From Cordylochernes scorpioides (taxonomy: Eukaryota > Arthropoda > Arachnida > Pseudoscorpiones > Chernetidae), in contig CP092872.1 of assembly GCA_030710605.1 (NCBI GenBank), positions 11,343,691 through 11,407,690 of the forward strand: a stretch of DNA of 64,000 bases, written 5' to 3'. The position numbers were made by a program, and so were the translations under genes. How positions within the stretch are numbered: position 1 is the first letter of the stretch; the number at the start of each line of letters is the position of its first letter. The notes below the pieces were generated by a model, which did not search any database, was not told the DNA's origin, and worked only from the letters and a program-made list of their open reading frames with translations. Below are positions 4,676-58,147 of this stretch, piece by piece.

Positions 4676-4703
4676 ACAAATGGTGCGCTAGTGCATTATA
4701 ATA

Positions 4704-11430: not shown

Positions 11431-11433
11431 TTA

Positions 11434-11444: not shown

Positions 11445-11450
11445 AAAAAT

Positions 11451-11469: not shown

Positions 11470-11495
11470 AAAAAAAAAAATTCTACACTATGTGA

Positions 11496-14400
11496 TCAGT
11501 CCTGTGTTTGTTCTTCTGGGCTTCTGTATGGTTTCATCCGCAGGACGTGGACGATGTCTTTGATATTCCGTTGTCTGGGTCTCCTCTCCAAGGCCTCTAC
11601 TTCATAAGTTACTTCAGACAGTTGTCTCACAACTTTATAGGGGCCGAAGTATCTTTTAAGTAGCTTCTCCGACAGTCCTTGTTTACGCACAGGTGTGTAC
11701 ACCCACACAAGGTCTTCCGTGCGGTACTGGACAGGTCTGTGGCTTTTGTCGTATCGAGATTTGTCTTTTTCTTGCGCCTTTAAGATGTTCAAACGGGCCA
11801 GCTGGCGTGCGTCCTCGGCATTTGTGACCAAACTCTCCACGTAGTCTTCCAGATTGGCTTCCTCTCTATACGTCAGGATGGTGTCCAATGGGGTCTCGAC
11901 ATCGCGTTCGTGTACAAGATAGAAAGGGCTAAACCCGGTGGTTTCCTGTTTGGCGGTGTTATAGGCAAAAGTTACGTAAGGGAGAACTGAATCCCAGTTT
12001 CTTTGGTCTACATCAACATACATAGACAACATGTCACCAAGTGTCTTGTTGAGTCTCTCGGTCAGGCCATTTGTTTGGGGGTGGTAGGCAGAAGTAAAGC
12101 GATGTGCGGTTCCACAGAGGTTGTTAATATCCCGAATTGTGTGGGATATAAACGTTCGACCTCGGTCTGAAATCAATTCTCTGGGGGCTCCATGTTTGAG
12201 GATCACGTCTTCTACTATAAATTTTCCAACTTCTTCCGAACTTCCATTTGGTATGGCTTTGGTCATAGCATACCTTGTTAGATAGTCTGTCGCGACCACG
12301 GTCCATTTATTGCCATCGTTCGAGGTAGGGAATCTTCCTAACAAATTTATCCCTATTTTCTCAAAAGGTCGGGATACCGGCGGAATTGGCACAAGTTGCC
12401 CTGGTGGACGTTCGGTAGAACCTTTTCGCCGTTGACATTCTCGACAATGTGCCACATATTGTCGCACAGATCTATGCAAGCCGGGCCAGAAATACTTTCT
12501 TCTAACGCGGTCGTATGTTTTGGCAAATCCCAGGTGTCCCGCCATTGGTGCATCGTGGGCTTCCCTCAAAATGTCAACCCTCATTTGTTTGGGCACTACT
12601 AAGAGCCAAGGTTTGCCCATGGGATCGTAGTTTTTGCGGTAGAGGATGCCGTCGATTATTTTGTATCCACTTTTGGAATCAATTTCCTGAATTATTTTTT
12701 TAGTCTGGACATCGCTTCTTTGCTCTTTTCTTATGTCTGTAATTGAAGACAATTCTGGTATGTTATCTTCGCTGGATTGGGGGAGAGGACTTCTTGAGAG
12801 GCAATCCGCATCTTGGTGTCTTTTGCCATTCTTATACACAATAGATATGTCGAACTCTTGAAGTCGCAAGGCCCATCTGGCTAGCCTTCCCGATGGATCC
12901 TTTACATTAGCTAGCCAACACAGGGAATGATGGTCGGAGACGACGGTGAAGTGTTTTCCAAACAAATATGGTCTGAACTTGTAAATGGCCCAAACTACAG
13001 CTAGGCATTCCCTCTCTGTCGTGGAATAATTTCTTTCTGCGGCGTTAAGTGTTCTTGATGCATAGGCGATAGGCTTTTCTTTTCCTTCTACCAGTTGGGT
13101 CAACACTGCTCCGACGCCATATCCACTCGCGTCGGTATGTACAAGTGTCTCAGCATCTTCCTTAAAATGGCCAAGCACAGGATCGGTAGTTAGGGCTGAT
13201 TTTAATATTTGGAAAGATTGTTCTTGTTCGTTAGACCAAAAGAACTTCACGTTATTCCTCAGGAGGTCGTGCAACGGCTTTGCTTTATTTGCAAAATCTT
13301 TCACAAATCGCCTGTAATATGAACACAACCCCATGAAGCTTCTTACTTCAGTTGTTGTTTTTGGAGTCGGGAAATTTGTAATTGCTTCGATTTTGTCGGG
13401 ATCAGGGCGAATGCCGCTTTCTGTAACCAGATGTCCTAACACTTTGATTTCTCTTGACCCAAAACGGCACTTCTCATGATTAATACACAAGCCTGCTTGC
13501 TGGATGCATCTGAGAACTTTCCCTAGGCGTTCAATATGTTCTTTAAAGGATGTAGCATAAACAATTATATCGTCTAAATAACAAAGACAAATTGTCCATT
13601 TCAATCCTGCTAGTAGTTTGTCCATCATTCTTTCGAATGTTGCCGGTGCGTTGCATAAACCGAAGGGCATCACCCGGAACTCATATAAGCCATCAGGGGT
13701 GATGAAAGCTGTCTTCTCCCGATCTTCCTCGTCGATTTCTATCTGCCAGTATCCTGTACGTAGATCCATGCTGGAAAAGAATTTAGCTCCTGTTAAGCTA
13801 TCCAAAACATCATCATTTCTAGGTAAAGGATACACATCCTTTTTGGTGACCTTGTTAAGCTTTCGGTAGTCTACACAAAATCTCCAGGACCCATCTTTCT
13901 TTTTAACCAAAACTACTGGGGACGACCAAGGACTTTCGGACGGTTGTACAATTCCCATCTTCATCATTTTATCGACTTCACTTTGTATAGCTCGTCTTTC
14001 GACAGGAGACACCCGGTATGGTCGTTGTTTAATAGGACGGCTGTCTGAAGTGTCGATTTTATGTTTCACATTGGAGGTTGTACTGAATGATTTTCTATCA
14101 AAATCAAAAACCTCTGAGTACTTTTCTAAACATTCTGCAATCATTGACTTTTGTTCTTCGTTTAATCTCTCGTCTACCAGAGATAAGATTTGTTGGCGTC
14201 TATCTTCATTCTTAATGTTTGATTGAGTTTTATCGTCTTCAGCTGTGTCAACACTGTAGATTCCGCTACTTCCAATTTTCCTCAAGTATCCTACAAGCAT
14301 ACCAGCTGGGATTATTTGATTCTGAGAAGTCCCATTAGTTACCCATATCTCCCCTCTGCCGTGATGGAAGTTAATTATGGATGATGGTATGACCAATTCT

Positions 14401-14894
14401 TTTTTTAAGATGAGATATTTGCTTCCTTCTATCATTAGATCTTTTCCACCTCGAATATCTTCGTTAATAACCGTGATTTTCTTAATTGAGCGATCTGGAA
14501 CAAAACAGTCTTCTAACGCATGTGTAGGCATATCTTCTTCTAGGCCGTCGTTCACACTTTCCTTCAAATGTATTTCACCTCTTCCGCAATCAATCACTGC
14601 ACTTGTGGCTCGAAAGAAATCAAGACCAAGTATTATGTGATGGCTACATTCAGAGAAGACAAAAAAAGTAAAATAAATCTCAAGTTCTTCAATTGACACT
14701 TTTAAGTTGCATCGTCCCAGAGTTTCGATGTGTTTCCTATTGGCGACTCTCAGTACAGGCCCTTTTTCTGCAAAGAACGGAATTTTCAAATATCGGCGAA
14801 AACTTTCCGAGATTACGGAATAATCGGCTCCAGAATCGACTAAGGCCTCAACATTCTGTCCATTTATGGTGATAACAACGTAGTTCCGTTTCAT
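11496..14894 (-). CDS. pol: Gypsy Pol polyprotein (PR-RT-RNH-IN)
   Basis: An 1132-residue frame from the first Met. Domains in order: aspartic protease (DSGADYS at 20-26); reverse transcriptase (FCVDYRKLNK at about 339-348, YLDD at 439-442); RNase H (HTDAS at 586-590, HQDADCLSR at 693-701); and integrase. The integrase has an HHCC zinc finger (H780, H788, C817, C820), a core with SDRG (D910) and TERLNK (E946), and a C-terminal GPY module (RYFGPYKV). The first integrase Asp, expected in the I-D-LLG motif, is Asn850 (codon AAT at 12345-12347), so strand transfer should be lost. The frame stays open upstream of Met1 into the end of gag, so Pol is probably made as a Gag-Pol fusion by -1 frameshifting, not from its own start. 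The protease would then lie about 50 residues after the fusion point. Confidence 0.97.
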   Translation of the reverse strand: MKRNYVVITINGQNVEALVDSGADYSVISESFRRYLKIPFFAEKGPVLRVANRKHIETLGRCNLKVSIEELEIYFTFFVFSECSHHIILGLDFFRATSAVIDCGRGEIHLKESVNDGLEEDMPTHALEDCFVPDRSIKKITVINEDIRGGKDLMIEGSKYLILKKELVIPSSIINFHHGRGEIWVTNGTSQNQIIPAGMLVGYLRKIGSSGIYSVDTAEDDKTQSNIKNEDRRQQILSLVDERLNEEQKSMIAECLEKYSEVFDFDRKSFSTTSNVKHKIDTSDSRPIKQRPYRVSPVERRAIQSEVDKMMKMGIVQPSESPWSSPVVLVKKKDGSWRFCVDYRKLNKVTKKDVYPLPRNDDVLDSLTGAKFFSSMDLRTGYWQIEIDEEDREKTAFITPDGLYEFRVMPFGLCNAPATFERMMDKLLAGLKWTICLCYLDDIIVYATSFKEHIERLGKVLRCIQQAGLCINHEKCRFGSREIKVLGHLVTESGIRPDPDKIEAITNFPTPKTTTEVRSFMGLCSYYRRFVKDFANKAKPLHDLLRNNVKFFWSNEQEQSFQILKSALTTDPVLGHFKEDAETLVHTDASGYGVGAVLTQLVEGKEKPIAYASRTLNAAERNYSTTERECLAVVWAIYKFRPYLFGKHFTVVSDHHSLCWLANVKDPSGRLARWALRLQEFDISIVYKNGKRHQDADCLSRSPLPQSSEDNIPELSSITDIRKEQRSDVQTKKIIQEIDSKSGYKIIDGILYRKNYDPMGKPWLLVVPKQMRVDILREAHDAPMAGHLGFAKTYDRVRRKYFWPGLHRSVRQYVAHCRECQRRKGSTERPPGQLVPIPPVSRPFEKIGINLLGRFPTSNDGNKWTVVATDYLTRYAMTKAIPNGSSEEVGKFIVEDVILKHGAPRELISDRGRTFISHTIRDINNLCGTAHRFTSAYHPQTNGLTERLNKTLGDMLSMYVDVDQRNWDSVLPYVTFAYNTAKQETTGFSPFYLVHERDVETPLDTILTYREEANLEDYVESLVTNAEDARQLARLNILKAQEKDKSRYDKSHRPVQYRTEDLVWVYTPVRKQGLSEKLLKRYFGPYKVVRQLSEVTYEVEALERRPRQRNIKDIVHVLRMKPYRSPEEQTQD

Positions 14895-14965
14895 GTTCGC
14901 AGTTATAATAGGGGGAGGATTTCTACTATCGTCAGCGGCCTTACCTCCAGTCTCGGTCGCTCTTC

Positions 14966-16243
14966 TTAGTTTCCCTGGCTTAGGCGGCGAGGAGATTGAC
15001 TGGATCGGCGAGAGGGCGACGGCGTTGCGTTTCGTCTTGAGGGGGATCTTCCACGGCCAGGATAGGGCGACGGGTTTCGAAAGCGGCGATCTACAAACTC
15101 AACTTCTTCGGCATTTTGATTGAACCAGGTATTGTAATTATTAGAGTAGGTCGGCCTTCTTACCCTGGCTTCCTCGAAAACACGCCTTCTGTCCCGGCAA
15201 TATCGGGCTACATGTCCCGGGCGACCGCAATGGAAACATATTGGAACGTTTTCGTGTGTCCTCCATTCATCAGTTCTTCTCTGTGGTGATGTCTGGTTGG
15301 GTACCGGTGGTCTTTGGTTCAGGAACTGCTGTCGTGGCGTCTGTTTGAATATTTGGGGTCGGTTAGAGTACTGTTGTCGTGGCATTGACCTTTGAACGGG
15401 CTGCGAAATTGCAGACAGGTTCCTTTCAACTTCCTTTCGGATAATTAGATCCAGGGAAGATGGTTTGAGAGTGGCTGGCTCGGGATTCAATGCATGGTAG
15501 ATTTCTTCTCGGACGATACGTCTAATGAGGTCCTCCATAGATTCCGATTCTGCTGGGTTGATGGCGGCAGCATTCGGCAGTCTATCAAAAACTATCCGCG
15601 TGTTCACACGCTTCTTTTGAGATAGTTCGATTTTTCGACACCACCTTATAAACTCCTCGGTGGTGGCAATTTCAAAGGTGACAATTGCCCTGTAAATTTC
15701 CTCAGAGACTCCCTTGACTAAATGAGCAACTTTCTCGTTTTCATTCATGTTGGGGTTAATTTGCCGACATAAATAGAGGACGTCTTGAATATACGCCTCA
15801 CTAGACTCTCCCTTTCCTTGGGCCCTGGCTTTTAGTTTTTCTAAAACCTGGTCTTTTTCGCTGGCGTGATGTCCAAAGGCCTGAGACAACATTGTCTCAA
15901 AAAGTTCCCATGAGGTTATTTGTTCCTCTACATTCTCGAACCAGACTTTGGCCGTTCCTGAGAGGAAGAAGTAAACATTCGCCAGGCACATGGAACTGTC
16001 CCAGCAGTTGAACCGAGCTACACGATGGTACTCTTTCAACCATTTTTCCGAGTTTTGGCCCAGTTCCCCCGAAAATATAGAAGGGTTTCTTATAGGTTTG
16101 AAGTGGTACTCACCCTGTGGGGTCTCTCTTCCTTCTTGTTGCATCTTAGAATATTCCAATGGGTTTAATCCTTGGATTCTACGACTTCTTCTTATAGCTT
16201 GGGCAGCGAAGGGATGATCCAGCTTGTCTCCACCAGATGTCAC
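14966..16243 (-). CDS. gag: Gypsy Gag protein with CCHC knuckle
   Basis: 425 residues, the structural capsid/nucleocapsid protein that packages element RNA in the cytoplasm. Residues about 55-210 form the helical capsid-like region, with a Retrotrans_gag-type W..F stretch at 112-120 and QVLEKLKARAQGK at 132-144. A basic Gln/Pro/Arg-rich linker follows, then one zinc knuckle C336-x2-C-x4-H-x4-C349 and an Arg/Ser-rich tail. The predicted ATG uses the last six bases of the 5' LTR (ATGACA), so the reading frame enters directly from the LTR. The next in-frame Met is residue 34 and could be the true start. The stop TAA (14968-14966) directly follows a GGGAAAC slippery site. Confidence 0.95.
   Translation of the reverse strand: MTSGGDKLDHPFAAQAIRRSRRIQGLNPLEYSKMQQEGRETPQGEYHFKPIRNPSIFSGELGQNSEKWLKEYHRVARFNCWDSSMCLANVYFFLSGTAKVWFENVEEQITSWELFETMLSQAFGHHASEKDQVLEKLKARAQGKGESSEAYIQDVLYLCRQINPNMNENEKVAHLVKGVSEEIYRAIVTFEIATTEEFIRWCRKIELSQKKRVNTRIVFDRLPNAAAINPAESESMEDLIRRIVREEIYHALNPEPATLKPSSLDLIIRKEVERNLSAISQPVQRSMPRQQYSNRPQIFKQTPRQQFLNQRPPVPNQTSPQRRTDEWRTHENVPICFHCGRPGHVARYCRDRRRVFEEARVRRPTYSNNYNTWFNQNAEEVEFVDRRFRNPSPYPGRGRSPSRRNATPSPSRRSSQSPRRLSQGN
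14969..14975 (-). promoter_or_regulatory. -1 ribosomal frameshift slippery site (GGGAAAC)
   Basis: In the gag frame the minus strand reads CAG GGA AAC TAA, giving the canonical X XXY YYZ heptamer G GGA AAC right before the stop. Pol is open in the -1 frame from this point through to its first Met at 14894, with no stop in between. Slippage here would give one Gag-Pol fusion. I see no clear pseudoknot downstream by eye. Confidence 0.85.
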
Positions 16244-16610
16244 AGTAATGAAGGTGACGAGTCGTTTGGGTAGAATAAAATAATAATTTATTAGATGACT
16301 TTAAATAGTTAATAAGTTTGACGGATAAAAAGAAATAGAGGTAAACTAAGTTAAATGGATAAAAATAATGGTAAATTAAGGAAGTAATGTCAGAGACCCA
16401 AACGGCTGGCGTTCCGCTACACCCCTCAAGATGGCGACTATTGTTTACAAACTTGCCGCCTAGCGCGCCCGCCATCTATCGGGGCTTAGGTACATAACAC
16501 TTGCCGAGCTGACAGCGCGCGCCACCTATCGGGGCTTAGGTACATAACATTCGCCAAGCTGCCGATGTATTATTTACAGTTACAAGCTATGTACATTTTT
16601 GGTTATGACA
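16238..16610 (-). repeat. 5' LTR of the gypsy element
   Basis: 373 bp, the transcription-driving LTR on the minus strand. Directly downstream (16237 and lower) the minus strand reads TC then TGGTGGAGACAAGC. This is in the position of a tRNA primer-binding site and begins with the expected TGG, but I cannot assign the tRNA. Confidence 0.95.
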
Positions 16611-17289: not shown

Positions 17290-17645
17290 TTCGAAGCTAT
17301 AATAGACGTGTTTGATTCTTTTTAAAAAATTAAACAATTTTCTACTGTCCTTTCTGCAATTTAATATTAATGGGAGGGCCTGGCTCCTCAGTGGTGAATC
17401 CTCCTGGCGGTTTCGCCAGTTTAATTTTTATATATTAAATTTTATTTATTCAAATATAATTTATTACTATAAAATTTTATATTTAATCTTTTAATAGATT
17501 AAACTGGCGAAACCGCTGGAAGTGTTCACCTCTGATGAGCCAGGCCTTCACATTAATTTTTGATTGCAGTAAGGACAGTAGAAATTGTTTAATTTTTAAA
17601 AAGAATCATACGCGTCTATAATAGTTTCGAATATTCATAACAGAT
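17290..17645. repeat. Family F inverted pair
   Basis: The left arm (about 17295-17425) and right arm (about 17500-17640) mirror each other around an AT-rich centre. The landmarks CTATAATAGACGTGTTTGATTC and AATGGGAGGGCCTGGCTC recur inverted. Each arm holds the CTGATGA/GAAA core; the right one is at 17504-17543 on the plus strand. Confidence 0.85.
17504..17543 (+). ncRNA. Permuted hammerhead-like core, CTGGC/GCCAG stem II
   Basis: The order is CTGGC (17504-17508), GAAA (17509-17512), a loop, GTT, a short CACCT linker, CTGATGA (17532-17538) and GCCAG (17539-17543). CTGGC and GCCAG pair perfectly, placing helix II as the open end (type II topology). Stem I would have only about 5 bases, too short for a normal hairpin, so cis cleavage is doubtful. 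Confidence 0.5.
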
Positions 17646-17649
17646 GGCG

Positions 17650-21061: not shown

Positions 21062-22545
21062 TGTTACATACTGTAGCTACATGTTATAGATGGTTATATG
21101 TGTGGTTTAACCTTTGTATATAGATTTGTATATTGTGAAATCATCAAATATTCCTATAACACGTGTATTTCTGACGTCTTCCACTTTCTTATTCTTATAA
21201 AATTACATTCAATGGTTACATACTGTAGCTACATGTTATAGATGGTTATATGTGTGTTTTAACCTTTGTATATTGGTTAGTATATTGTGAAATCATCAAA
21301 TATCACTATAACACGTGTATTTCTGACGTCTTTCACTTTCTTATTCTCATAAAATTACAGTCAATGGTTACATAGTATAGCTACATGTTATAGATGGTTA
21401 TATGTGTTAATTATCCTTTTTTATATAGATTAGTATATTGTGAAATCATCAAATATAACATGTGTATTTCTGACGTCTTTTAGATTCCAGATTATTATAA
21501 TTCCTTATTCTTATAATTAAAATCTGTAGTTACATACTGTAGCTACATGTTATAGATGGCTACATGTGTTTTAACCTTTGTATATAGATTTGTATATTGT
21601 GAAATCATCAAATATTCCTAAAACACTTACATTTCTGACGTCTTTTAGATTCCAGATTAGTATAATTCCTTATTCTTATAATTGAAATCTGTAGTTACAT
21701 ACTGTAGCTACATGTTATAGATGGTTATATGTGTGAATTAACCTTTGTATATAGATTTTTATATTGTGAAATCATCAAATATTCCTTTAACTCGTGTATT
21801 TCTGACGTCCTTTAGAATCCAGGGGTTGATAGAGTTTTTTAAACAACTATCTGTAAAATTTTCTTATTAATATAAAATTACAGTCAATGGTTACATACTG
21901 TAGTTACATGTTATAGATGGTTATATGTGTGATTTAACCTTTTTTATATAGTTTGGTTTGTTGTGAAATCATCAAATATTCCTATAACACGTGTATTTCT
22001 GACGTCTTTAGATTCCAGGGTTTGATAGAGTTTTTTGAACAACTCTCTGTAAACTTTTATTATTCTACTAATTGTAATGAATGTTACAATCTGTAGCTAC
22101 ATGTTATAGATGGTTATATATGTGTTTTAACCTTTGTATATAGATTCGTATATTGTGGAATCATCAAATATTCCTATAACACGTGTATTTCTGACGTCTT
22201 TAGATTCAAGGGTTGATAGAGTTTTTTGAACAACTCTCTGTAAACTTTTATTATTCTACTAATTGTAATGAATGTTACAATCTGTAGCTACATGTTATAG
22301 ATGGTTATATATGTGTTTTAACCTTTTTATATAGATTAGTATATTGTGTGAAATCATTTAATATAACGCGTGTATTTCTGACGTATTTCAGATTCCAGGG
22401 GTTAATAGAGTTTTTGAACAACTTTCTGTAAACCTTTATTATTCTTCTAATTGTAATGAATGTTACATACTATAGCTACATGTTGCAAATGGAATAAGGT
22501 TTTTTAAACCTTTTTTTAATATAGTTTAGTATATTGTGGCGTAGA
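21062..22545. repeat. Tandem array, nine units of 150-197 bp
   Basis: Units begin near 21062, 21213, 21366, 21529, 21692, 21889, 22082, 22272 and 22460 with GTAGCTACATGTTATAGATG. Each carries TTGTGAAATCATCAAATAT, an ACACGTGTATTTCTGACGTC block and an AT-rich linker. The first four or five units are about 150-165 bp. The later ones gain a GATAGAGTTTTTTGAACAAC block and reach about 190 bp, so two unit classes are ordered along the array. A stray partial unit lies at 22765-22805. Confidence 0.92.
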
Positions 22546-22799
22546 AATCAAGTCTTGGAATATGTGAAGGTATTTATTGATGACGTCAGTACGACAAGTC
22601 GACAATTATCAACAACTCAACAAAACTATCTACAGCTAGAGAATCTTGAGCAAGCACGCAAAGAAATATTTCAATCATTATTTTGTATTGAATAATTAAA
22701 TTAAATCTGTTTCCAAATATTTTCATTGAATAATTAAATTAAATAATAAATTATTTTTTCGCCACAATATTGTGAAATTATCATTCCTATAACACGTGT

Positions 22800-23062
22800 A
22801 ATTCTGAACACGTACACGTTTCGGAATGTTGGCCCTTGTCAGCGTGGTGCAAGCTGTACCTTAACGACCAAAATAATTGGGTCATTCAGACATCCTGAAA
22901 AATCATGAAACGGGTAGTTAAGACCATAAGTATGTGAGAACGCTAAACAATGTGAAAGAAATAGTACAAATGTGATATTGTACTGGGATAAGGATGGATA
23001 AATTAAGAAAAGCTATCAGAAACTCTCATTTGCACGATAAGAAGATGCCTTTTTCTTAATAT
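22800..23062 (-). repeat. Family C/D-type repeat with degraded hammerhead
   Basis: On the minus strand, 22860-22810 reads CCACG, CTGACAA, GGGCCAACATTCC, GAAACGTGTA, CGTG. This parallels the family D ribozyme but has A at the essential G8 position and a poorly paired stem II. It is followed by the family C blocks ATAGTACAAATGTGATATTG and TTGCACGATAAGAAGATGCC. It links family C to the hammerhead-bearing family D. Confidence 0.7.
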
Positions 23063-23649: not shown

Positions 23650-23835
23650 GTGGTGAGACATTTTGACAATTTTCTACTGCTCTTAATACAATGATAAATT
23701 AATGGGAGGGCCTGGCTCCGCCCGGAGTGGATTCGCCCGTTCAATCTACCATTATACTGTAATATTGCACTGGGATGTTTTAACTTTATACCGATACTGA
23801 AACTAAACTCTTATAAAATGCATTTTAAATAAACT
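23650..23835. repeat. Family F fragment
   Basis: CAATTTTCTACTGCTCTTA and AATGGGAGGGCCTGGCTC match family F, but the hammerhead-like core is deleted (GCTCCGCCCGGAG in its place). Confidence 0.65.
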
Positions 23836-26085: not shown

Positions 26086-26354
26086 ATAGGAACAGAATAA
26101 AAATGCAATAGTTGTAGTGATATGGTAGATTAAATTAACGAAATTTCTGGGATGGTTCACCACTGATGAGCTAACTTTCTGAAATATATCTTCATTGTTT
26201 ATTTTTTTGAATTGGGTTAATACGAGAGGGAGATTCAAAGAATTAGCGATTAATAATTTATATTTCACATACAGATGGCAGTATGTGCTTTGTTTTCTAA
26301 TACTACAATAATATTTACAAACTAAAATTCACACAAACAGTATAAATGTAAAAA

Positions 26355-26675
26355 AAAAAAAAATAGTACAAATGTGATATTGTACTGGGATAAGGTACAT
26401 ACATTGAGAAAAAAGGCATCTCCTTATCGTGCAACTGAAAGATGCTGATGGCTTGCGCCATCTATCGGAATAAATATAAACTATTTTCGTTGATTTTTAA
26501 TTATTCCAGAAACGCGTCAGTTGTTAGATTTTCTTGATTAATCAAGAATGGGTATTTGGCCAATACTGGAATAATTAAAAAATCAACGAGAATAGTTTAT
26601 ATTTATTCCGATAGATGGCGCAAGCCATCAGCAACTTTCAGTTGCACGATAAGGATATGTATTTTTCTTAGTTTA
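26355..26675. repeat. Family C inverted pair
   Basis: GGCATCTCCTTATCGTGCAA..GCGCCATCTATCGGAATAAA on the left is mirrored by TTTATTCCGATAGATGGCGC..TTGCACGATAAGGATATG on the right. The centre keeps AAACGCG and TCAG, the collapsed remnant of a family D-like hammerhead, and TTTTCTTGATTAATCAAGAA. Confidence 0.85.
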
Positions 26676-33214: not shown

Positions 33215-33465
33215 TGTGAAAAAGGCATCTCCTTATCGTGCAACTGAAACTGGCTTTCACCATCTATCGGAATAAATATCAACTATTCTCGTTTTTTTTT
33301 TAATTATTCCAGAAATAATTAAAAATAAACTAGAATAGTTGATATTTATTCCGATAGATGGCGCAAGCCATCAGCAACTTTCAGTTGCACGATAAGGAGA
33401 TGCCCTTTTTCATAATCATGCACCTTATTTCAGTACAATATCACATTTGTACTATTTTTTCATAT
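33215..33465. repeat. Family C inverted pair
   Basis: GGCATCTCCTTATCGTGCAA and TTGCACGATAAGGAGATGCC mirror each other around an AATTATTCCAGAAATAATT centre. The right flank has ACAATATCACATTTGTACTA. Confidence 0.85.
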
Positions 33466-33475
33466 ATATATACAT

Positions 33476-33836
33476 ATGAAAAAACAATAGAAAAAAATAA
33501 AAGATAAGTGGGTCAGGTGTTGATATTAAAAATAAAGAAGGCATCTCCTGACCACGAGCACATGTGCTTTTTAGATGGCAGAGCGCCATCTAGTGGAGCA
33601 AAAATAAACTAAACGTTTATTTAGCTTGCTCCGTGATATTTGGCCAACCCAATTTCTTGATAAATCGAGAAAAGCCATCCACGAACGCGTTTCGCGCTGT
33701 TGGCGCTCGTCAGCGTGGAGAAGGCTGTAACCACTGCGACCAAAAAGATTTTTTGGTCCCAATGGCTTCCCGAAAAATCAAGAAATGGGTATTTAAGGCC
33801 AAATTTGCGTAAAGACGCTTAACACATGAAAAAATA
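33476..33836 (-). repeat. Family D unit with complete hammerhead
   Basis: It runs from AAAAGATAAGTGGGTCAGG through CATCTCCTGACCACGAGCAC, AGATGGCAGAGCGCCATCTA and the hammerhead (33678-33719) to TTTGCGTAAAGACGCTTAAC. The AGATAAGTGGGTCAGG start then repeats at 33850, giving a partial tandem arrangement like the pseudo-LTRs of Penelope elements. It does not encode a protein. Confidence 0.85.
33678..33719 (-). ncRNA. Hammerhead ribozyme motif, family D (complete)
   Basis: Read 5'-3' on the minus strand: stem I TCCACG (33719-33714); CTGACGA (33713-33707); stem II GCGC, loop CAACA, GCGC (33706-33694); GAA (33693-33691); stem III ACGCGT (33690-33685); T at the cleavage position (33684, GUU triplet); stem I CGTGGA (33683-33678). 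Stem I is a perfect 6 bp and stem II a perfect 4 bp. Stem III is a 6-base palindrome that can hardly close in cis but pairs perfectly between two copies, as in dimeric hammerheads. All invariant core bases are present. Confidence 0.88.
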
Positions 33837-34035
33837 ATATAAAAAATAAAAGATAAGTGGGTCAGGTGTTGATATTAAAAATAAAGAAGGCATCTCCTGA
33901 CCACGAGCACATGTGCAAGCGGAGCAAGCTAAATAAACGTTTAGTTTATTTTTGCTCCACTAGATGGCGCTCTGCCATCTAAAAAGCACATGTGCTCGTG
34001 GTCAGGAGATGCCTTCTTTATTTTTAATATATACA
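33836..34035. repeat. Family D palindrome lacking the ribozyme
   Basis: GGCATCTCCTGACCACGAGC and GCTCGTGGTCAGGAGATGCC mirror around AAACGTTTAGTTTATTTTTG. The hammerhead segment is absent. Confidence 0.8.
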
Positions 34036-34043
34036 TATATATA

Positions 34044-34204
34044 CAGTTAAACCTGTCTATAGCGCCCCCTCAAATTGCGCCTCCCTCTCTATAGCGCCCG
34101 ATTTTAAATACGTAGTACGATGCGATATTTACATTAAAAGTGACCTGTCTATAGCACTCCCTCTCTATAGCACCCTATAGGGGCGCTATAGACAGGTTTA
34201 ACTG
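34044..34204. mobile_element. TIR MITE (CAGTTAAAC family), copy 3
   Basis: CAGTTAAACCTGTCTATAGC and its inverse bound 161 bp, with TA on both sides. Inserted beside family D copies. Confidence 0.9.
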
Positions 34205-34610
34205 TAAATAAATATAATCTATAGATATTAAAAAGATAAATAATACTCACTTTATTACAATATAAATTATTTTTTGGGCTATTTTTTTTTCACCTTTAGC
34301 AAAAATTAATCGAGTTCGACTTCCCTTACCGCTTAAAAATGGATTTCTGAAAAGTTCCTGATATATTGGAAATATAGCCTAATACAATTGTAGTTCGGTA
34401 TGGTGAAGTGGCGAAACCGCTGGGAGGGTTCACCACTGATGAGTCATAGGTCTTGGATCAGATGAAATTTTCACAATCTTCCAATGTGGTGTTTATCTGG
34501 CAAAGTAGCTATTCAAATCTATGGTCAACATATAGATATAAATAAATTTTGTGAATTAATTTTTATATATCAATATATACTGCCGGAAAAATTTCATTTA
34601 TATATATATA
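34205..34610. other. AT-rich sequence with a family F core scrap
   Basis: GTGGCGAAACCGCTGGGAGG..CACCACTGATGAGTCA at about 34408-34446 is a family F core with a damaged stem II. The rest shows nothing recognisable. Confidence 0.55.
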
Positions 34611-34613
34611 TAT

Positions 34614-35163
34614 ATGAAAAATCAATAGAAAAAAATAAAAGATAAGTGGGTCAGGTGTTGTTGATATTAAAAATAAAGAAAGCATCTCCTGACCACGAGG
34701 ACATGTGCTTTTTAGATGGCAGAGCGCCATCTAGTGGAGAAAAAATAAACTAAACGTTTATTTAGCTTGCTCCGAGATATTTGGCCAACCCAATTTATTG
34801 ATAAATCAAGAAAAACCATCCACGAACGCGTTTCGCGCTGTTGGCACTCGTCAGCGTCATGTGTTAAGCGTCTTTACGCAAATTTGGCTTTAAATACCCA
34901 TTTCTTGATTTTTCGGGAAGCCATTTGGACCAAAAATCTTTTTGGTCGCAGTGGTTACAGTCTTCTTCACGCTGACGAGCGCCAACAGCGCGAAACGCGT
35001 TCGTGGATGGCTTTTCTTGATTTATCAAGAAATTGGGTTGGCCAAATAGCTCGGAGCAAGCTAAATAAACGGTTAGTTTATTTTTGCTCCACTAGATGGC
35101 GCTCTGCCATCTAAAAAGCACATGTGCTCGTGGTCCGGAGATGCCTTCTTTATTTTTAATATA
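34614..35163. repeat. Family D inverted pair with two hammerheads
   Basis: A minus-strand copy (34614-34857) meets a plus-strand copy (34857-35163) at the TCAGCG|TCATGTG junction. The left copy keeps the core but lost its distal stem I strand at the junction, and its stem II shows GTGC/GCGC (one G-U). The right copy is complete. The 115-residue open frame across the pair is a translation of the repeat, not a gene. Confidence 0.88.
34966..35007 (+). ncRNA. Hammerhead ribozyme motif, family D (complete)
   Basis: Stem I TTCACG (34966-34971) pairs with CGTGGA (35002-35007) with one G-U. CTGACGA is at 34972-34978, stem II GCGC/GCGC with loop CAACA at 34979-34991, GAA at 34992-34994, the palindrome ACGCGT at 34995-35000 and T at 35001. 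It is the same motif as 33678-33719 in the opposite orientation, with one stem I change kept as a wobble pair. Confidence 0.87.
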
Positions 35164-35445
35164 TATATATATTAAAAACAAAGTAGGCGTATCCTGACCA
35201 GGAGCACATGTGCTTTTCAGAAGGCAGAGCGCCATCTGGTGGAACAGAAATCAACTATTCAATGATTTAACCTGTTCCATGATATTTGGCCAACCCAATT
35301 TCTTGATAAATCAAGAAAAGCCATCCACGAACGCGTTTCGCGCTGTTGGCGCTCGTCAGCACATGAGCTCCTGGTCAGTATATGCCAACTTTTTTTTTAA
35401 TATCAACACCTGACCCACCTATTTTTTATTTTTCTATTTTTTTTT
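35163..35445 (-). repeat. Family D variant, hammerhead truncated at stem I
   Basis: It uses CAGGAGCACATGTGC and GGCAGAGCGCCATCTGGTGG blocks. The hammerhead core (minus strand 35359-35324) is intact from CTGACGA to CGTGGA, but the 5' strand of stem I is replaced by TCATGTG, so it cannot fold in isolation. Confidence 0.8.
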
Positions 35446-35839
35446 TCATATATATATGTCATAAAAAAAGACGTATTCTAGTTACGTTACCAATTCATGC
35501 AGTCGTGGATGGAAATGAATGATAACTTTTGTCCCAAAACTATATTTATTTTTTGATTATTTTTAAAGCAAACAGTTTTTGCATACCTACAACTAACAAT
35601 GTTATTATCTATTTACAATAAAATAAAAATTAAGTTATATTCCTTTTGTTAAGATATTCTTTTCATTTTAAAATTTAACTCTGTGATTATAGAATTTTAA
35701 TTATTTTATGAATAATAAAAATCATATTTTTATTATGTCATATATATATAGACCGAAATGCGTACATGGTTGGATTTTCTTGATTTATTTTTTTCCAATT
35801 TTTTTTCACGGACAAGTTTATAAACTAAGAAGAAAAAAA

Positions 35840-36699: not shown

Positions 36700-36965
36700 A
36701 ATGAAAGCATAAAAGTAATAATGCTTTTTTTGCAAATGAATCGAACTTCTACTATCCTTACTGCGATGAAAAAATATTGGGAGGGCTTGGCTCATCAGTG
36801 ATGAATCCTCCCAGAGGTTTCGCCAATTTAATCTACCAGACCGCTTTTATAGCTCTAATACTATATTGGATTATTCTGCTTATATATGCTACACTGAAGG
36901 ATGGAATCTTATAAATGTTATTAAAGCAAACTATGGACATAAGCTTTTAGGACAGCAGAATTATA
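36700..36965 (-). repeat. Family F copy (TTGGC/GCCAA)
   Basis: The minus-strand core reads TTGGC, GAAACC, loop, TTCATCA, CTGATGA, GCCAA. ATCTACCAGACCGCTT and a TATATATGCTACACTGAAGG tail match 42180-42265. Confidence 0.75.
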
Positions 36966-38615: not shown

Positions 38616-40049
38616 ATATAATTTGTTCATACCTTAAAAATAAATTGCTGTGTCATCCTGAAGATTGTATTTCCTAATTTTCAACATGTCAATATATAAT
38701 TTTATCTTTTCTAATACGTCTATATATCCATAGCTGTGTAGAAAAAAAGGAACGTAGTAGTTTGGGCTCCATTTTAAATTCACTCACCTTTAAACTATAT
38801 GCAAATCTAATAAAATATGCATATATCGACATTTCTACCTATAAACATTGTTGAATATGAAATTCATATCTTTTTTATTATTATTTTTGCCATTTTACTG
38901 TGTTTCACGGTGAGATGTTGGAAAGTTGTGGAAAATTTTATTTGAGGCGTCGAAATATTGGATAGAAATGCAATTGATTTTTCTCTATAGAAAATGTTCG
39001 GTTATAGTTTTCTCTTTTTATTTCATATCCTTCGATAAGAGAATGTTCTTTTGGTTTTTAAAAGTTTTTTTTTCCCGTGAAATTCTGACGAACTTATACT
39101 CACTATGTATGTATATCGGCACTATAGAAATACATAAAGGTGTATACCTTATACTGCGAAATACATGATCAATCTCAAAGCAAGAACTTTTGATATATTT
39201 ATACAAGAATATTTATATTCTATTTCTTTAAAATATAGAATCACACGCATATCTCAATATACAATTATATAAATGATTAAAAAATAAAATATCTATCTCT
39301 ATTTATAAAAATCAATGTTTGTATGTTTGTTTGTTTGTATGTTTGTTTGTTTTTATGTCCGGTATACAAATTCGCAGTAGTTCACTAATTCAAACCAAAA
39401 TTTCCATACATAGGTAAAAAAACACGAGGAAGACGATAGGCTATATCAAAAAATATATAAATCAATTATTAAAACTATATATTCAAATTATTCTTCTTAG
39501 CTGACGAACAGCGCCCTCTACCAAAGATGTGCCTCTACAGACCTATAAGCTTATGTTAATAGTTTCCCTAAACACCCTAAGCTGTCTTCCATAGTAATTA
39601 CAGGATATATAAGAAAACCAATCCAATACAATAGTAGAGTGGTCTGGAGATTAATTTGGTGAAACCGCTGAGAGGGTTAAGTACTGATGAGCCAAGCCCT
39701 CTCATTCAATAACTTTTATCATTGAAGTAAGATCTGTAGAGTTATTATTTGATGATTTGTGTGAAATAAACACATTTGAAAAAAATAATTGTTAAACATT
39801 GTATCGAAAGATGTCAATTGAATTTACAAATATAAAATATTATTCTTTCAAACATTTTCTATAATTGAAGCGTAACCGTTATTTATCGCTGCTTGTTGCG
39901 CCTTATTTTAGAATGAATTATTTTGGACTCTAGTTTATTTTTAAATTAAAATATACAAGTATCAGAGTCATATTAGAGTCATCAATCAATTCTGTCATCG
40001 TTTGCTTTTGTGAATGGAATAAATACCCAAATATGGCCATTTCTTATAA

Positions 40050-40130: not shown

Positions 40131-40916
40131 ACAATTTTTAAAACTCATTTATTTAAACTATATTAATTTTGAAACAACTAAATGGATTGCAAAAAAAATA
40201 ATTAAATCAAATACCTAAACACTAATATAATACAATTTTTGCCATTACACACTTTTTTTCCTGTAGTTTATATGTTTCTTCTGTATTGCTATTCTATGGC
40301 ACTTCTACTATTTATTATTGATGTACTTTCAGTATGAAGGATACTTCACTCGGGGGATTTCTCGGGCGAAGCCGGGTCATTCTTCTAGTAAAGGTATAAT
40401 TACCACAATTAGCGAACTGAAGATAAAAAGAAAGAATTTGTGGGCTTAGCTCATCAGTGGTGAACCTTCTCAGATGATGATCCAGGTTTCTCTTCCCATA
40501 TTTTTCTTTTTAAGCTTTATTTCACTTTACTTCGTAGACAATATAAATCTTCCTTTATTTAAATAAAACCTAGCGACGAACAGAATATATTATGTGTATT
40601 ACTAACTTAGGCGGCCATAGTTCATCTAAAACATCAAATTATTGGATCAACAACAATGAAATTCATTTATCCGAACTATCTGAATATACACTCATAGACA
40701 AAATTTAAGTATTTCAATGCTCGCCTGTTATGTATTGGTTTCTTAAGCACCACTTAGATTTGATAAGGGTTGAGTTTTACTTGGAATTCAGATTTTGCCC
40801 CCAGACCTTATATAGACAAATATTTCAGCTACCGCCATGGACAAATCTTAAGGAAGCTGTATCTTTTAGCATGTATATCGGGATTCAGACAATAACTTTG
40901 AAAGATATTACAATGA

Positions 40917-42089: not shown

Positions 42090-42315
42090 AATAAATCAAA
42101 CTTCTACTGTCCTTACTGCAATGAAAAAATATTGAGAGGACTTGGTTCATCAGTGGTGAACCCTTCCAGTGGTTTCGCCAATTTAATCCACCAGACCGCT
42201 TCTTAGAGTTCTAATACTGTATTGGATTATTCTGCTTATATATGCTACACTGAAGGATGGAATCTTAGAAATGGTATTTAAGCAAACTATGGATATAAGC
42301 TTTTAAGACAGTAGA
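42090..42315 (-). repeat. Family F copy (damaged stem II)
   Basis: The minus-strand core is TTGGC, GAAACC, loop, CTGATGA, ACCAA. One stem II pair is lost (C opposite A). The flank ATCCACCAGACCGCTTC follows. Confidence 0.75.
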
Positions 42316-42839: not shown

Positions 42840-43255
42840 TACAAAACTATTATAGACGCGTATGATTCTTTTTAAAATAAAACAATTTCTACTGCCCTTA
42901 CTGCAATGGAAAATTAATGGGAGGGCCTGGCTCATCGGTGGTGAACCCTCTCAGCGGTTTCGCTAGTTTAATCTACAATACCGCTGTTTTATTGCATTTT
43001 TGGAACTTCCTTTTATAGTGATACTGATGCAAGACTCTTCGAATGGGTATTTCAGATGAACTATGGACATAAGCTTTTAGGATAGCAGAATTACATATAA
43101 TTATAAATATATAAATATATATTCACCACTGATGAGCCAGGCCCTCCCATTAATTTTCCATTGCAGTAAGGGCAGTAGAAATTGTTTTATTTTAAAAAGA
43201 ATCATGCGCATCAAAAATAGTTTTGTATTTTGATAACAGATGGCGCGCTAGTGCA
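42840..43255. repeat. Family F inverted pair
   Basis: AAACTATTATAGACGCGTAT..AATGGGAGGGCCTGGCTC (left) is mirrored by GAGCCAGGCCCTCCCATTAA..AGAATCATGCGCATC (right). The left core has CCGATGA and a broken stem II. In the right arm the 5' half of the core is missing. Confidence 0.8.
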
Positions 43256-45128: not shown

Positions 45129-45482
45129 ACAAATAAATTTACTGGCAATGCGTTTCTTTTAATATCATCAAATATTATCTCTACAGACCTCACTGCAATG
45201 ATATGAGTTATTGAATGAGAGGGCTTAGCTCATCCGTAGTGAACCCTCTAAGCGGTTTCGCCAAATTAATCTCTAGACCGCTCTACTATTGTTATGGATT
45301 GGTTTGGAATATACCCTGTATTTTCTAGCGGTCTAGAGATTAATTTGGCGAAACCGCTGAGAGGGTTCACTACTGATGAGCCAAGCCCTCTCATTCAATA
45401 ACTCATATCATTGCAGTAAGGTCTGTAGAGATAATATTTGATGATATTTAAAAGAAACGCATTGCCAGTAAATTTATTTGTG
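45129..45482. repeat. Family F inverted pair (TTGGC/GCCAA subfamily)
   Basis: Arms of about 165 bp from ACAAATAAATTTACTGGCAA to its inverse, centred near 45305. The landmarks are CATTGCAGTAAGGTCTGTAG and AGGGTTCACTACTGATGAGC. Both arms carry the core; the left one has GGATGA in place of CTGATGA's start. Confidence 0.88.
45345..45384 (+). ncRNA. Permuted hammerhead-like core, TTGGC/GCCAA stem II
   Basis: TTGGC (45345-45349), GAAACC, loop, GGTT, CACTA, CTGATGA (45373-45379), GCCAA (45380-45384). Compared with 17504-17543, the outer stem II pair has changed on both sides (C-G to T-A), a compensatory change. Stem I remains only about 5 bases. Confidence 0.55.
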
Positions 45483-47797: not shown

Positions 47798-48045
47798 GAA
47801 ATTTTTGCCGGGAGGATATTGATCTATAAAGATAAAGGTTCACCTCTCCCCCGTCAAAATAGACGTCAAAACTAGATGCCATCTATTGACCGTCGGGGAA
47901 AACTAACGGCTTCGGGTCGGTGACAGAGCTACAAACCAGCTTTGGAAAACTGAGAAGCGTCCTCCTAGAAACCATGGTTTCGGTCTAATGGCCCTCGTCA
48001 TTCTAGGGCGGACTTTATTGAGACTTATAGGAGATCCATATGATC
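47798..48045. repeat. Family E copy with degraded hammerhead
   Basis: It starts TTTTTGCCGGGAGGATATTG and includes CCCGTCAAAATAGACGTCAA and CATGGTTTCGGTCTAATGG. On the minus strand, 48007-47964 reads CCTAGA, ATGACGA, GGGC..GACC, GAA, ACCATGGT: C3 is mutated to A and stem II has one mismatch. Confidence 0.8.
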
Positions 48046-53070: not shown

Positions 53071-53299
53071 TAAGTGTTCTCATTTAAATTGTACCTTTCA
53101 GCATGTATATCGAGATTCAGACAATTCATTGATGTCTCACGAGATAACCTAATATGAACAGCCTCTGTCTCTTTCAAAAAAACAAAAAGGTCGATTGGCG
53201 ATACTAAAATATAAAACTTTCTAAAGTTGTATCCATGAATGTAAGTCTAATAGTCTATCCTTCACCAAGAGTATCCGTGCCTTGTGTTGGTCACATCCT

Positions 53300-53425
53300 A
53301 TGTACAGAGCGGTCTGGAGATTAATTTAGCAAGGGCGCATGAGAGAGTTCACCACTGATGAACCAAACCCTCTCGTTCATTAACTTTTATCATTATAGTA
53401 AGGTCTCTAGATATAATAAATAAGT
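53300..53425 (+). repeat. Family F degraded copy
   Basis: GCGGTCTGGAGATTAATTTA, GAGTTCACCACTGATGAACC and CATTATAGTAAGGTCTCTAG match the TTGGC subfamily, but the GAAA block is destroyed. Confidence 0.65.
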
Positions 53426-53574
53426 ATTTTATGAAATTGTTAATAGGAAACACATTGCCAAATAATTAATTGTTAGAAATTTTAACGATAGAGAGAGAAA
53501 AATAGCATTTGAATTCATAAACCTAACAGAATTCAAGCAAAGTGTTGCACACGCCTCATGGTAGCGTGTTAAAA

Positions 53575-53770
53575 GAACTAAAGAGACAAAGGTCGCCTCT
53601 CCCGTCAAAATAGACGTCAGAACTAGACGCCATCTATTGACCGTCGCCGCAACTAGCGGCCTTGGGTCGGTGACAAAGCCACAACACCAGCTTTGGCAAA
53701 CTGAAAAGCGTCCACCTAGAGACCATGGTTTCGGGCTAATGGCCCTCGTCAGCCTAGGGCGGACTTTATT
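53575..53770 (-). repeat. Family E unit with complete hammerhead
   Basis: Landmarks GGTCGCCTCTCCCGTCAAAA, TAGACGTCAGAACTAGACGC and GGTGACAAAGCCACAACACC lead to the ribozyme at 53715-53758. The open frames across it are translations of the repeat and recur in the inverted pair next door. Confidence 0.85.
53715..53758 (-). ncRNA. Hammerhead ribozyme motif, family E (complete)
   Basis: On the minus strand: stem I CCTAGG (53758-53753); CTGACGA (53752-53746); stem II GGGC, loop CATTA, GCCC (53745-53733); GAA (53732-53730); stem III ACCATGGT (53729-53722); C at the cleavage position (53721, GUC triplet); stem I TCTAGG (53720-53715). Stem I pairs over 6 bp with one G-U and stem II over 4 bp. Stem III is a perfect 8-base palindrome suited to dimer folding. 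All invariant core bases are present. Confidence 0.88.
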
Positions 53771-53867
53771 CCATGAGATCCACACGGGATCTAATGGAAT
53801 CTTGACAATCTGCCAAAGAGGTGTTTAGCTGGCAAAGTGGCTGGGCCATATCTATGGCTAAAATATG

Positions 53868-54081
53868 GATGGAAATTTTGCCGGGAGGATATTGATCTAA
53901 AGAGGCAAAGGTCGCCTCTCCCGTCAAAATAGACGTCAGAACTAGACGCCATCTTGTCACCGACCCGAGGCCGCTAGTTGCGGCGACGGTCAATAGATGG
54001 AGTCTAGTTCTGACGTCTATTTTGACGGGAGAGGCGACCTTTGTCTCTTTAGATCAATATCCTCCCGCCAAAATTTCCATC
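53868..54081. repeat. Family E inverted pair without ribozyme
   Basis: GATGGAAATTTTGCCGGGAG to AGACGCCATCT is mirrored by AGATGGAGTCTAG to CTCCCGCCAAAATTTCCATC around a short centre (53956-53993). The ribozyme half of each unit is absent. Confidence 0.88.
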
Positions 54082-54084
54082 TGT

Positions 54085-54985
54085 GTTAAAAGAAGTTGTT
54101 TGATTTCTAAAAATGTAGTTTTTTAACTTTTAAAATACGTTTTCTCTTTGTTCCTATAGTGAGAAAGCAACAAGGACTTCCTGTATTGATCGGACATCCG
54201 CTATGGAAATTAGCCATTCAGTCCAAAGACAATAAAGAGTCAAACATAAATCTAAATTTCAGGCCATAAAAACCTATCTAGGAATCTATAAAAGAAAACT
54301 CCATAGATTCGGGGATCCTTCCAAACAAATACACTTTTCGATTTTCCAAATGGACGGCTGTATAACCCAGGTTTGGGGCTAACCCTTGTAAATCTGCCCC
54401 AGACGAAAACTGATATTGGCGCCGTAAATTTTCGTCTGCGTCTTTTTTTTTTTTTTCTGTTGTTCGTCTGCGTTGTTTTTATAATTCACATTTGGCGTCT
54501 CTATAGTTTGCTGCCATCTTCAATTGTAACGTTTACAAAGTTGCATAAAGATTTTTTTTTATATTTCCATTTTCTATTTTAGAGTATGAATCTTTTTTAA
54601 AAGATAAATCTTTTGAAATATAACAAATATATTACTATAGAGATTCTTTTTTTTCTCTCTCTCTTCTTCAACAATAAGAGAAACATCCTTTTAAGTATAT
54701 GAATATTTTTCTCTGTTTTAATTGTTCGAGTTCTAAATTGAATAGTTCTTTACAAAATTGAATACAACTCTTTTGTTTCTCAACTTTACATAATTTCTTT
54801 TCATCGTCTGTTTTATGAATTTCGGAAATTTATTATTCTATGTTTTTACTACAGTCAAACTTGAATAATTCGTAGCCCAAGAAACCAAGCAAAAAAATCT
54901 AATTATCTAAAAATTCGAATTAAAAACGGAAATTCTATTCATAGGAAATTTTAGCAACCAAGATAAATATTCGAAAACAACACTT
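54085..54985. other. AT-rich sequence, nothing recognised
   Basis: T-rich tracts and no supported gene. Confidence 0.5.
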
Positions 54986-57348: not shown

Positions 57349-58147
57349 TAAAATGAAATGATTATAACATTAGAGATGTTTTAATTAAATAATTAAGGTT
57401 TCTGGAATTGCCTTTTTTTATTGAAGCAGTTTCAAGCTTTCTGGCTTCTCTGTCCGTCTACAGGGGAATATATCAGCAGCGGTTTATTCGTTTTATATAA
57501 TGTTCTCCTGCAGAAGGGCAGAGATGTCCAAACACTTGAGACTGATTCAATATAATTAAAAAAAAACTCATTTCCAGAAACCTTTTTTATAACATGAATC
57601 ATGAAAATTTCTCTTATAGAATTGTAAATAGTTATAAAACGAAGAGAAATTTTTTATTTTTATTTTTAATATACATGGGCTACAAGCTTTCGGGCTTCAC
57701 GCCCTTCGACGGGTACAACATATTGAGAGAAAATAACGCTATATATAGTATCGATATGTGAGGAATCTGCATACATAACCATATAGGAGTTAACAATATC
57801 AGATTAAGTTATGGAAATAAGGCTTTTTTATAGAAATATTTGACGAAAGTAGGATGTGATGCTAATTAAAAATTAAAAATGAAAAACTAAAAATATTTTG
57901 TCAGATTTAACATAACTAAGACTATTGCAATTTATAGAAGAACATATGATCATCTATGGATGTCAATCAACTTAAACCAATGTGATGTTATATTAAAAAA
58001 CCACCAACAGTGAGGAACTATGGCATGGCCCGCCATCAGCGCGATCATCGGACAAAGGAAAAAATTATATAGGAGTAGGTGTCTGGGTGGGGGGGTGGTT
58101 TGTTTGCAGTGGGATTAACAGTAAGATCAGGGAAAGAAGTGAACGGC

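Follow-up and report, generated by a model that had tools for sequence, protein, structure and literature searches.

A 64-kb window of the genome of the pseudoscorpion Cordylochernes scorpioides (GenBank assembly GCA_030710605.1, contig CP092872.1, positions 11,343,691 to 11,407,690, numbered below from its first letter), to which all counts of hammerheads, repeats and boxes refer, contains four families of short repeats, here called C, D, E and F, whose individual copies are numbered D1–D5, E1–E3 and F1–F11 (Table 1). We posit, with a probability of about 0.74, that D, E, F and probably C are short non-coding arachnid retroelements that share a layout and, in part, a 3' box, and that carry hammerhead ribozymes of two kinds. 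Using C for the hammerhead block with CUGANGA, G for that with GAA and S for the substrate, the hammerheads of D and E are type I, with the block order C-G-S (CGS), and those of F follow the order S-G-C (SGC). An initial annotation of this DNA had singled out family D in the interval 33678–35363; family F is the unusual part and was absent from that annotation, even though one of its copies, F11, sits within the same interval.

Family F was reached by following the shared box, and its copies contain GAAACC...CTGATGAG. The consensus is AGCGGUC UGGUA.. UUGGC GAA ACCGCU GGGAGGG UUC ACCA CUGAUGA GCCAA G CCCUCCC, in which stem III is formed by AGCGGU and ACCGCU, stem I by UGGU and ACCA, stem II by UUGGC and GCCAA, and a bridging helix by GGGAGGG and CCCUCCC. 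The substrate thus comes first, GAA second and CUGAUGA third, with no gap between the bridging helix and stem III, an arrangement that, judged from the letters, identifies F as the carrier of a predicted type-SGC hammerhead, non-circularly permuted and pseudoknotted. F1 keeps all counted pairs, and F3 all but one mismatch and one absent position, both in stem I. Folded alone, F1 and F3 form two hairpins, one from stem III and one from the bridging helix, with z-scores of −3.28 and −2.71 (0 and 3 of 200 shuffles as good, respectively).

The window was scanned for all six block orders, the minimum being 3 pairs in stem I and 4 each in stems II and III; this returned SGC at 34436 and 45373 on the plus strand and at 10374 and 4547 on the minus strand, CGS at 34972 (plus), 53752, 34854 and 33713 (all minus), and no other order in the window. 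The three blocks span 51–56 nt in the four F copies that passed. When four pairs were demanded of every stem, SGC was retained at 34436 (plus) and 4547 (minus) and CGS at 53752 (minus). Control sequences gave few matches: one in each of two other orders and no SGC in 60 Markov-1 sequences under the strict scan, six in 100 Markov-2 sequences (neither SGC nor CGS), 20 in 300 Markov-3 sequences (SGC five, CGS one), and none on either strand of the reversed window. The random expectation is at most about 0.02 SGC matches per window, on which a chance origin of the SGC matches was rejected; that of the CGS matches was rejected by shuffles and random-sequence scans. The CTGATGA at 34436, considered as a chance match, turned out to be the core of F11.

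A model of the nested part of F finds 16 copies at E < 0.001, of which 11 are its training set; the five further copies, without an S block or too far decayed, were left out of the pair counts. Ten copies (without F11) have a mean identity of 71%, with core columns 95%, paired columns 85% and other columns 74% conserved, and H17 is A in three of them and C in seven. Among the 11 aligned copies CUGANGA is kept in 9, GAAA in 10 and both in 8. The copies are related by descent and are therefore not independent events, though they have diverged. The bridging helix, absent from F11 and broken in F10, is paired in 81.8% of cells across 11 copies and in 85.7% across nine. In the nine copies left after excluding F8 and F11, 88.2% of 204 cells are paired, compared with at most 52.5% when partners are slid; double changes occur in 10 cells (reached by 4 of 500 shuffles), and the covariation score is 0.238 versus 0.198 ± 0.018 in shuffles, 13 of 500 of which reach it. 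With all 11 copies, including a misaligned F11, the score is 0.240 versus 0.197 ± 0.016 (1 of 500); in this test F11 counts against the structure, because MAFFT placed it without the gap it needs.

Two side observations concern the ends of F copies. The arms of the inverted F pair at 17363–17560 start about 3–6 nt past the predicted cut, as though copied from cleaved RNA. Behind F11, at 34455–34543 on the minus strand, lies an inverted piece that matches, at 77% identity, the stretch upstream of the hammerhead in E; the likeness suggests a chimera of two families and that elements of this sort become linked.

The type I hammerheads of D were examined with the 28-base core CTGACGAGCGCCAACAGCGCGAAACGCG, allowing up to three mismatches. 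It matched four times, at 33713 (minus), 34854 (minus), 34972 (plus) and 35359 (minus), with 0, 1, 0 and 0 mismatches, and near copies were absent from 100 shuffles of the sequence, which bears out the earlier claim of four copies with a common core. D1 and D3, annotated as complete, do each have a 6-pair stem I, CTGACGA, a GCGC/GCGC stem II with loop CAACA, GAA, the palindromic ACGCGT and U as H17, and the placement of H17 in D1 agrees with the cleavage position originally predicted. The two G-U pairs noted at the outset are likewise present, in stem I of D3 (UUCACG/CGUGGA) and stem II of D2 (GUGC/GCGC). E1, whose core at 53752 (minus) was found by a scan for core with stems, adds a second family with stem II GGGC/GCCC, stem III ACCATGGT and stem I CCUAGG/UCUAGG. 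Past an internal loop stem I resumes in D1 (AGCC/GGCU), D3 (AGUC/GGCU) and E1 (GUCC/GGAC). Sequence comparison added three decayed sites, D5, E2 and E3, bringing the type I sites to eight; CUGANGA, GAA, A15.1-U16.1, H17, three stems and the order C-G-S were all found in D1, D3 and E1, D2 and D4 have an intact core with a weak stem I, and three of the eight have broken cores.

A search with Rfam hammerhead models, proposed in the initial annotation as a check, called none of the four D cores at gathering scores; relaxing the threshold brings up three of them as weak matches to Hammerhead_HH9 (best 27.5 bits, compared with a cut-off of 52). The failure at gathering scores is probably due to the lack of a loop in stem III. 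A model trained on the eight sites and then searched in the window recovered those sites at E ≤ 4e-14, with no other match below E = 2.8. In the eight-site alignment 90.6% of 96 pair cells are standard, both sides are changed in 6 of 12 core pairs (a count reached by 31 of 500 shuffles) and double changes occur in 16 cells (0 of 500), counts that include some stem I changes accompanied by rearranged flanks in D2 and D4, where pairs are also broken. The covariation score is 0.542 versus 0.258 ± 0.045 in shuffles, and at most 0.176 with partners slid. This supports the view that structure was kept while sequence drifted.

As stem III is a loopless palindrome, two same-sense strands can pair there. 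The computed double hammerhead has 34 (D1), 34 (D3) and 36 (E1) standard pairs and no non-standard ones, at energies of −45.1, −33.9 and −47.8 kcal/mol, and the dimer optima lie at −47.7, −42.3 and −52.6 kcal/mol; by this calculation the active dimer would be reachable without being the optimum. The annotation had also allowed for a double hammerhead built from both arms of an inverted pair. That part was rejected: in the read-through RNA predicted for the D2/D3 inverted pair, the three core positions checked pair with their complements in the opposite arm (for example 34854 with 34972). The inverted arms cannot build the structure because one of them is transcribed as the reverse complement.

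A shared box, TAGTT-N15-AGATGGCG, in which AGATGGCG lies 20 nt on from TAGTT and the letters between are unrelated, occurs in C, D, E and three F loci. With up to two mismatches it has 22 matches in the window versus 1.11 expected, of which three (11229, 16409 and 30566) start without TAGTT, and AGATGGCG alone has 21 versus 0.72. TAGTT precedes AGATGG by at most 60 nt in 25 cases, with a spacing of exactly 20 nt in 18 of them, and in D the second half of the box opens a hairpin, AGATGGC/GCCATCT. AGATGGCG also occurs on both strands at 11.25–11.30 and 16.43–16.48 kb, on each side of two long open reading frames (ORFs; 1200 and 444 aa) of a retroelement at 11200–16500, which we take to be Ty3-like, its AGATGGCG-bearing flanks presumably being long terminal repeats (LTRs). 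The box may resemble CTCF or YY1 sites; among the papers listed by a literature search for the letters of AGATGGCG, none was of help. Its role may be that of a promoter, which is one idea among others, and retrozymes seem promoterless according to the part of a review available to us (PMC7761336). In family C the hammerhead was seen as 3' halves only: 3' halves of type I hammerheads lie on the plus strand at 26509–26560 (GAAACGCGTC, in a C element) and 35754–35788 (GAAATGCGTA), which suggests from sequence that C is also a hammerhead family.

In D locus 1 an inverted piece precedes a partial and a full sense unit, whereas D loci 2 and 3 each consist of an antisense arm joined to a sense arm that bears the 3' tail. 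The E1 structure, 505 bp long, follows the same plan as D locus 1. It lies as a whole inside a duplication that is unique in the window, and therefore most likely inserted as one event; similarly, the C element C37 is flanked on both sides by the 12-bp AATAAATAAAAG, found nowhere else in the window. The D loci are embedded in (AT)n, which makes target duplications there unreadable. Each D1 or E1 locus comprises about 1.3 units with one same-sense hammerhead. The unit lengths of 349 (D) and 319 (E) are inside the retrozyme range of 170–400 nt, and the units are non-coding: no ORF was found within C, D, E or F units, and hence none for reverse transcriptase or GIY-YIG. G+C is 40.7% in the D unit, 28.6–32.6% in F stretches and 50.2% in the E unit.

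A candidate mobiliser is present in the window as a Penelope-like element with a second, inverted copy. Pfam analysis of three pieces of 58148–62511 detected RVT_1 and no GIY-YIG; several relatives of the reverse transcriptase protein carry PF01541 or bear GIY-YIG names, and the label Penelope-like was given because these relatives join reverse transcriptase to GIY-YIG. In a search with the reverse transcriptase (8000 candidates scored), the top four matches, with 90–96% identity over 70–87% of the query, are from Cordylochernes scorpioides, as are all of the best 76 of the 120 matches listed. The Penelope-like elements stand head-to-head at 57640–63030, each ORF being followed by a degenerate hammerhead-like stretch. 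These stretches (about 62947, plus, and 57720, minus) have two wrong core letters and a poor stem I and were not counted.

Cervera and de la Pena (2020) describe metazoan non-LTR retrozymes as short animal elements that are non-coding and have type I hammerheads, a G+C content below 50% and typically below 45%, and a head-to-tail tandem arrangement with a hammerhead per unit; they produce circular RNA, and Penelope elements were proposed as their mobilisers (PMC7229834). As far as the available text of that paper goes, D and E resemble them in type I hammerhead, non-coding unit of about 170–400 nt and (partial) tandem, and also in a target duplication of more than 4 bp, the presence of Penelope elements in the same genome and presumed dimeric action where stem III is weak. 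They differ in having at each locus an inverted piece and a single same-sense hammerhead, and E is not low in G+C; unlike the retrozymes as described there, C, D, E and some F have a common 3' box, and F has the SGC order (PMC7229834). The suggestion of family D as the best candidate for an undescribed system therefore does not hold as such, short non-coding hammerhead elements being known as metazoan retrozymes (PMC7229834). D fits these elements with a Penelope-style inverted layout, as does E except for its G+C of 50.2%. That layout is known from the Penelope elements of Adineta vaga, in which, in the sections available, direct copies adjoin a shorter inverted one, a 3' tail may be present and the targets are AT-rich (PMC3846280). 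The repeats here share with them the inverted beside direct copies, the 3' tail, palindromic junctions, AT-rich targets and short target duplications, and differ in that no ORF was found in the C, D, E and F units (PMC3846280).

Other type I relatives bear on dimerisation. The minimal hammerheads of Penelope-like elements (Cervera and de la Pena 2014; Lunse et al. 2017) are thought to act as dimers, according to the excerpt of the review in PMC7761336, and D and E resemble them in being type I, thought dimeric and located in animal retroelements; in contrast to these minimal forms, which are without helix III or loop contacts, D and E have a 6–8 nt palindromic stem III and a two-part stem I (PMC7761336). 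By description, the repeat hammerheads of newt and Aedes also have a palindromic stem III permitting a dimeric ribozyme, in organisms other than the present one (PMC3088659, part of the text).

For F the comparison is with the type-SGC hammerheads (HRIMA-1 and variants) of Eckert et al. (2023), which come mostly from metatranscriptomes and, in the portions of that paper available, from no known organism's genome, the single exception being a weak bacterial candidate of another block order (PMC10085705). There, stems I and II are bridged on their free sides by a helix, a few members have zero nucleotides between it and stem III, and the linker between stems I and II typically has three nucleotides, a length that is typical and not essential (PMC10085705). 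F agrees with this type in block order, core letters and a bridging helix joined directly to stem III, and departs from it in being a multicopy repeat of an animal genome and in linker length (PMC10085705). Openly licensed PubMed Central (PMC) literature contained no joint mention of pseudoscorpion and hammerhead ribozyme; among the matches listed, it offered for SGC or permuted RNA hammerheads Eckert et al. (2023) and structure-comparison work only, and no arthropod counterpart bar a plant retrozyme paper. The D/E-like core pattern occurs at six loci in IMG/VR viral contigs (L001–L006), and a scan of viral contigs for the F-type core returned none.

In the life cycle that we propose, a unit would be transcribed by read-through, its RNA would cleave itself, and the products would be ligated to small circles or used as multimers; a Penelope-like enzyme would reverse-transcribe them at AT-rich sites and insert a partial tandem whose 5' end bears an inverted piece. 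Two same-sense D or E RNAs joined at the palindromic stem III would cleave best as a dimer. In F, stem III and the bridging helix would stand as side-by-side hairpins whose loops kiss via stems I and II, building the catalytic core.

Several observations weigh against this interpretation. As regards F, 4 of the 11 aligned copies pass the core-and-stem scan, and the covariation is modest: 32 of 500 shuffles reach the 88.2% paired share and 48 of 500 the 6 of 23 pairs that are doubly changed. F11 folds no better than shuffles (z = 0.12, 97 of 200) and is without the bridging helix, and the linker between stems I and II is 7–8 nt in F1, F3, F5 and similar copies and 1 nt in F11, compared with the published typical 3. 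The box matches at the F loci 4658, 17622 and 43218 and at no other F locus, including F3, F4 and F11, and the F copies on the box strand at 17622 and 43218 lack the S block. As regards mobility, no D or E locus in the window has two same-sense hammerheads, so no single locus could release a unit circle alone; the E unit is not low in G+C; and comparison of C, D, E and F queries across the window, with matches of at least 30 bases reported, found no sequence link in or beside the Penelope-like element. In addition, a Penelope-like element of Anolis showed no RNA ends at its hammerhead site, according to the part of PMC11167929 available.

The missing link to the window's one Penelope-like element equally opposes what we consider the strongest of the alternatives, albeit an unlikely one, namely that D, E and F descend from full Penelope-like elements as solo or paired pseudo-LTRs (pLTRs) left after loss of the ORF, and form no independent retrozyme lineage. 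Its appeal lies in the arrangement of two direct copies, an adjacent shorter inverted copy and a one-ended 3' tail, which is the Penelope pLTR layout in the sections of PMC3846280 available, and in the same inverted layout of the Penelope-like element here. Fold-back DNA transposons (miniature inverted-repeat transposable elements) with incidental hammerheads would account for the inverted arms and the 12-bp duplications at E1 and C37; the arms are unequal, however, the tail is confined to one end, there are partial tandems of 349 and 319 bp and the hammerhead was kept with covariation in two families, and we regard this as the most improbable of the explanations considered.

Two further alternatives concern F itself. 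That its conserved segment is two hairpins of another function, with a coincidental fit to SGC, would agree with a minimum-energy fold that is just two hairpins and with the modest covariation, but the core letters, the A-U beside the site, an H17 that is not G, stems I–III and the bridging helix fit jointly, and the rarity of SGC in random sequences argues against coincidence; we consider it improbable. A shade less probable again is an ordinary hammerhead assembled over three tandem units or several molecules in place of a one-unit pseudoknot. The blocks would indeed run C, G, S across three head-to-tail units; however, no tandem F array was seen in the F loci inspected, the three blocks lie close together in all four passing copies and the bridging helix is local.

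It is possible, at a little less than even odds, that these families form one animal retroelement superfamily with two block orders (type I in D, E and probably C, SGC in F), tied by layout and the box, in which template jumps yielding direct, inverted and chimeric pieces, such as that behind F11, re-ordered the ribozyme parts. The weight of this reading is reduced because the box matches only three F loci. If true, it would give SGC hammerheads an animal genomic home and provide a natural case for tracing their origin; how non-circularly permuted hammerheads evolved is a question raised by Eckert et al. (2023) in the text available (PMC10085705). With many diverged SGC copies beside type I relatives in an animal genome, origin, covariation and life cycle become directly testable. 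The presence of F also suggests that surveys limited to three circular permutations miss elements.

Table 1. Hammerheads, boxes, insertions and the Penelope-like element in the window (cuts are predicted)
Feature	Position	Strand	Description
F1	4528-4595	minus	best SGC copy; stems I-III and bridging helix all paired; cut 4588/4587, after CAGCGGUA
F2	42910-42997	minus	SGC; mutated core CCGATGA
F3	45327-45392	plus	SGC; stem I re-paired UAG/CUA, bridging helix GAGAGGG/CCCUCUC; cut 45333/45334, after AGCGGUC
F4	10346-10433	minus	SGC; three G-U pairs in stem III; H17 at 10415
F5	36770-36857	minus	SGC; two core blocks kept; stem III and bridging helix mismatched
F6	42125-42212	minus	SGC; two core blocks kept; stems II, III and bridging helix mismatched
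F7	39626-39712	plus	SGC; broken stem I
F8	53296-53383	plus	SGC; GAAA lost
F9	45208-45294	minus	SGC; mutated core CGGATGA; inverted partner of F3
F10	26104-26191	plus	decayed SGC copy; bridging helix broken
F11	34396-34446	plus	SGC; S 34396-34407, G 34409-34419, C 34429-34446; cut 34400/34401; no bridging helix
Inverted F pair without S block	17363-17560	17363-17445 minus, 17473-17560 plus	sequence comparison, model
F copy, C block only	43095-43157	plus	other arm of F2 locus
Weak F copy without S block	40429-40513	minus	sequence comparison, model
Weak F copy	23695-23770	minus	found by model only
D1	33678-33719	minus	complete type I (CGS) hammerhead; cut 33684/33683 (H17 at 33684)
D2	34819-34860	minus	core intact; stem II kept by G-U; stem I just 3 adjoining pairs
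D3	34966-35007	plus	complete type I hammerhead; cut 35001/35002
D4	35324-35365	minus	core intact; stem I 4 pairs, 3 of them G-U; fails all-order core-and-stem scan
D5	22797-22856	minus	decayed type I hammerhead (CTGACAA)
E1	53715-53758	minus	complete type I hammerhead, second family; GUC site; 8-nt palindromic stem III; cut 53721/53720
E2	47956-48015	minus	decayed E hammerhead; first core C lost
E3	1224-1284	plus	decayed E hammerhead, GAA to GTA; stem I re-paired as CCUGUA/UACAGG
D locus 1	33450-34045	minus	in sense order: antisense 3' piece, partial sense unit, full sense unit and 3' tail; period 349
D locus 2	34590-35170	minus	antisense D3 arm fused to sense D2 arm; in (AT)n
D locus 3	35160-35470	plus	antisense arm carrying D4, then sense 3' piece with tail
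E1 insertion	53578-54082	minus	antisense piece, partial unit, full unit; repeat at 319 bp
Left 12-bp target site duplication of E1	53566-53577	plus	GTGTTAAAAGAA; 2 occurrences in window
Right 12-bp target site duplication of E1	54083-54094	plus	GTGTTAAAAGAA; 2 occurrences in window
Box of D1	33584-33611	minus	pattern match
Other D boxes	34725-34752, 35074-35101, 35230-35257	minus, plus, minus	pattern match
Box in E1	53628-53655	minus	pattern match
Boxes in F elements	17622-17649, 43218-43245, 4658-4685	plus, plus, plus	pattern match; 2 mismatches in 4658-4685
Reverse transcriptase ORF of Penelope-like element	58148-60364	minus	candidate mobiliser; ORF list, Pfam RVT_1, protein relatives
Second, inverted copy of Penelope-like element	60300-62511	plus	frame broken; ORF list, Pfam

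The window also holds two other features. A tandem array with periods of 152–191 bp occupies 21063–22484, and a U6 small nuclear RNA gene or copy lies at 1341–1445 on the plus strand (Rfam, 100.6 bits), about 22 nt past the end of the E3 match (1318).

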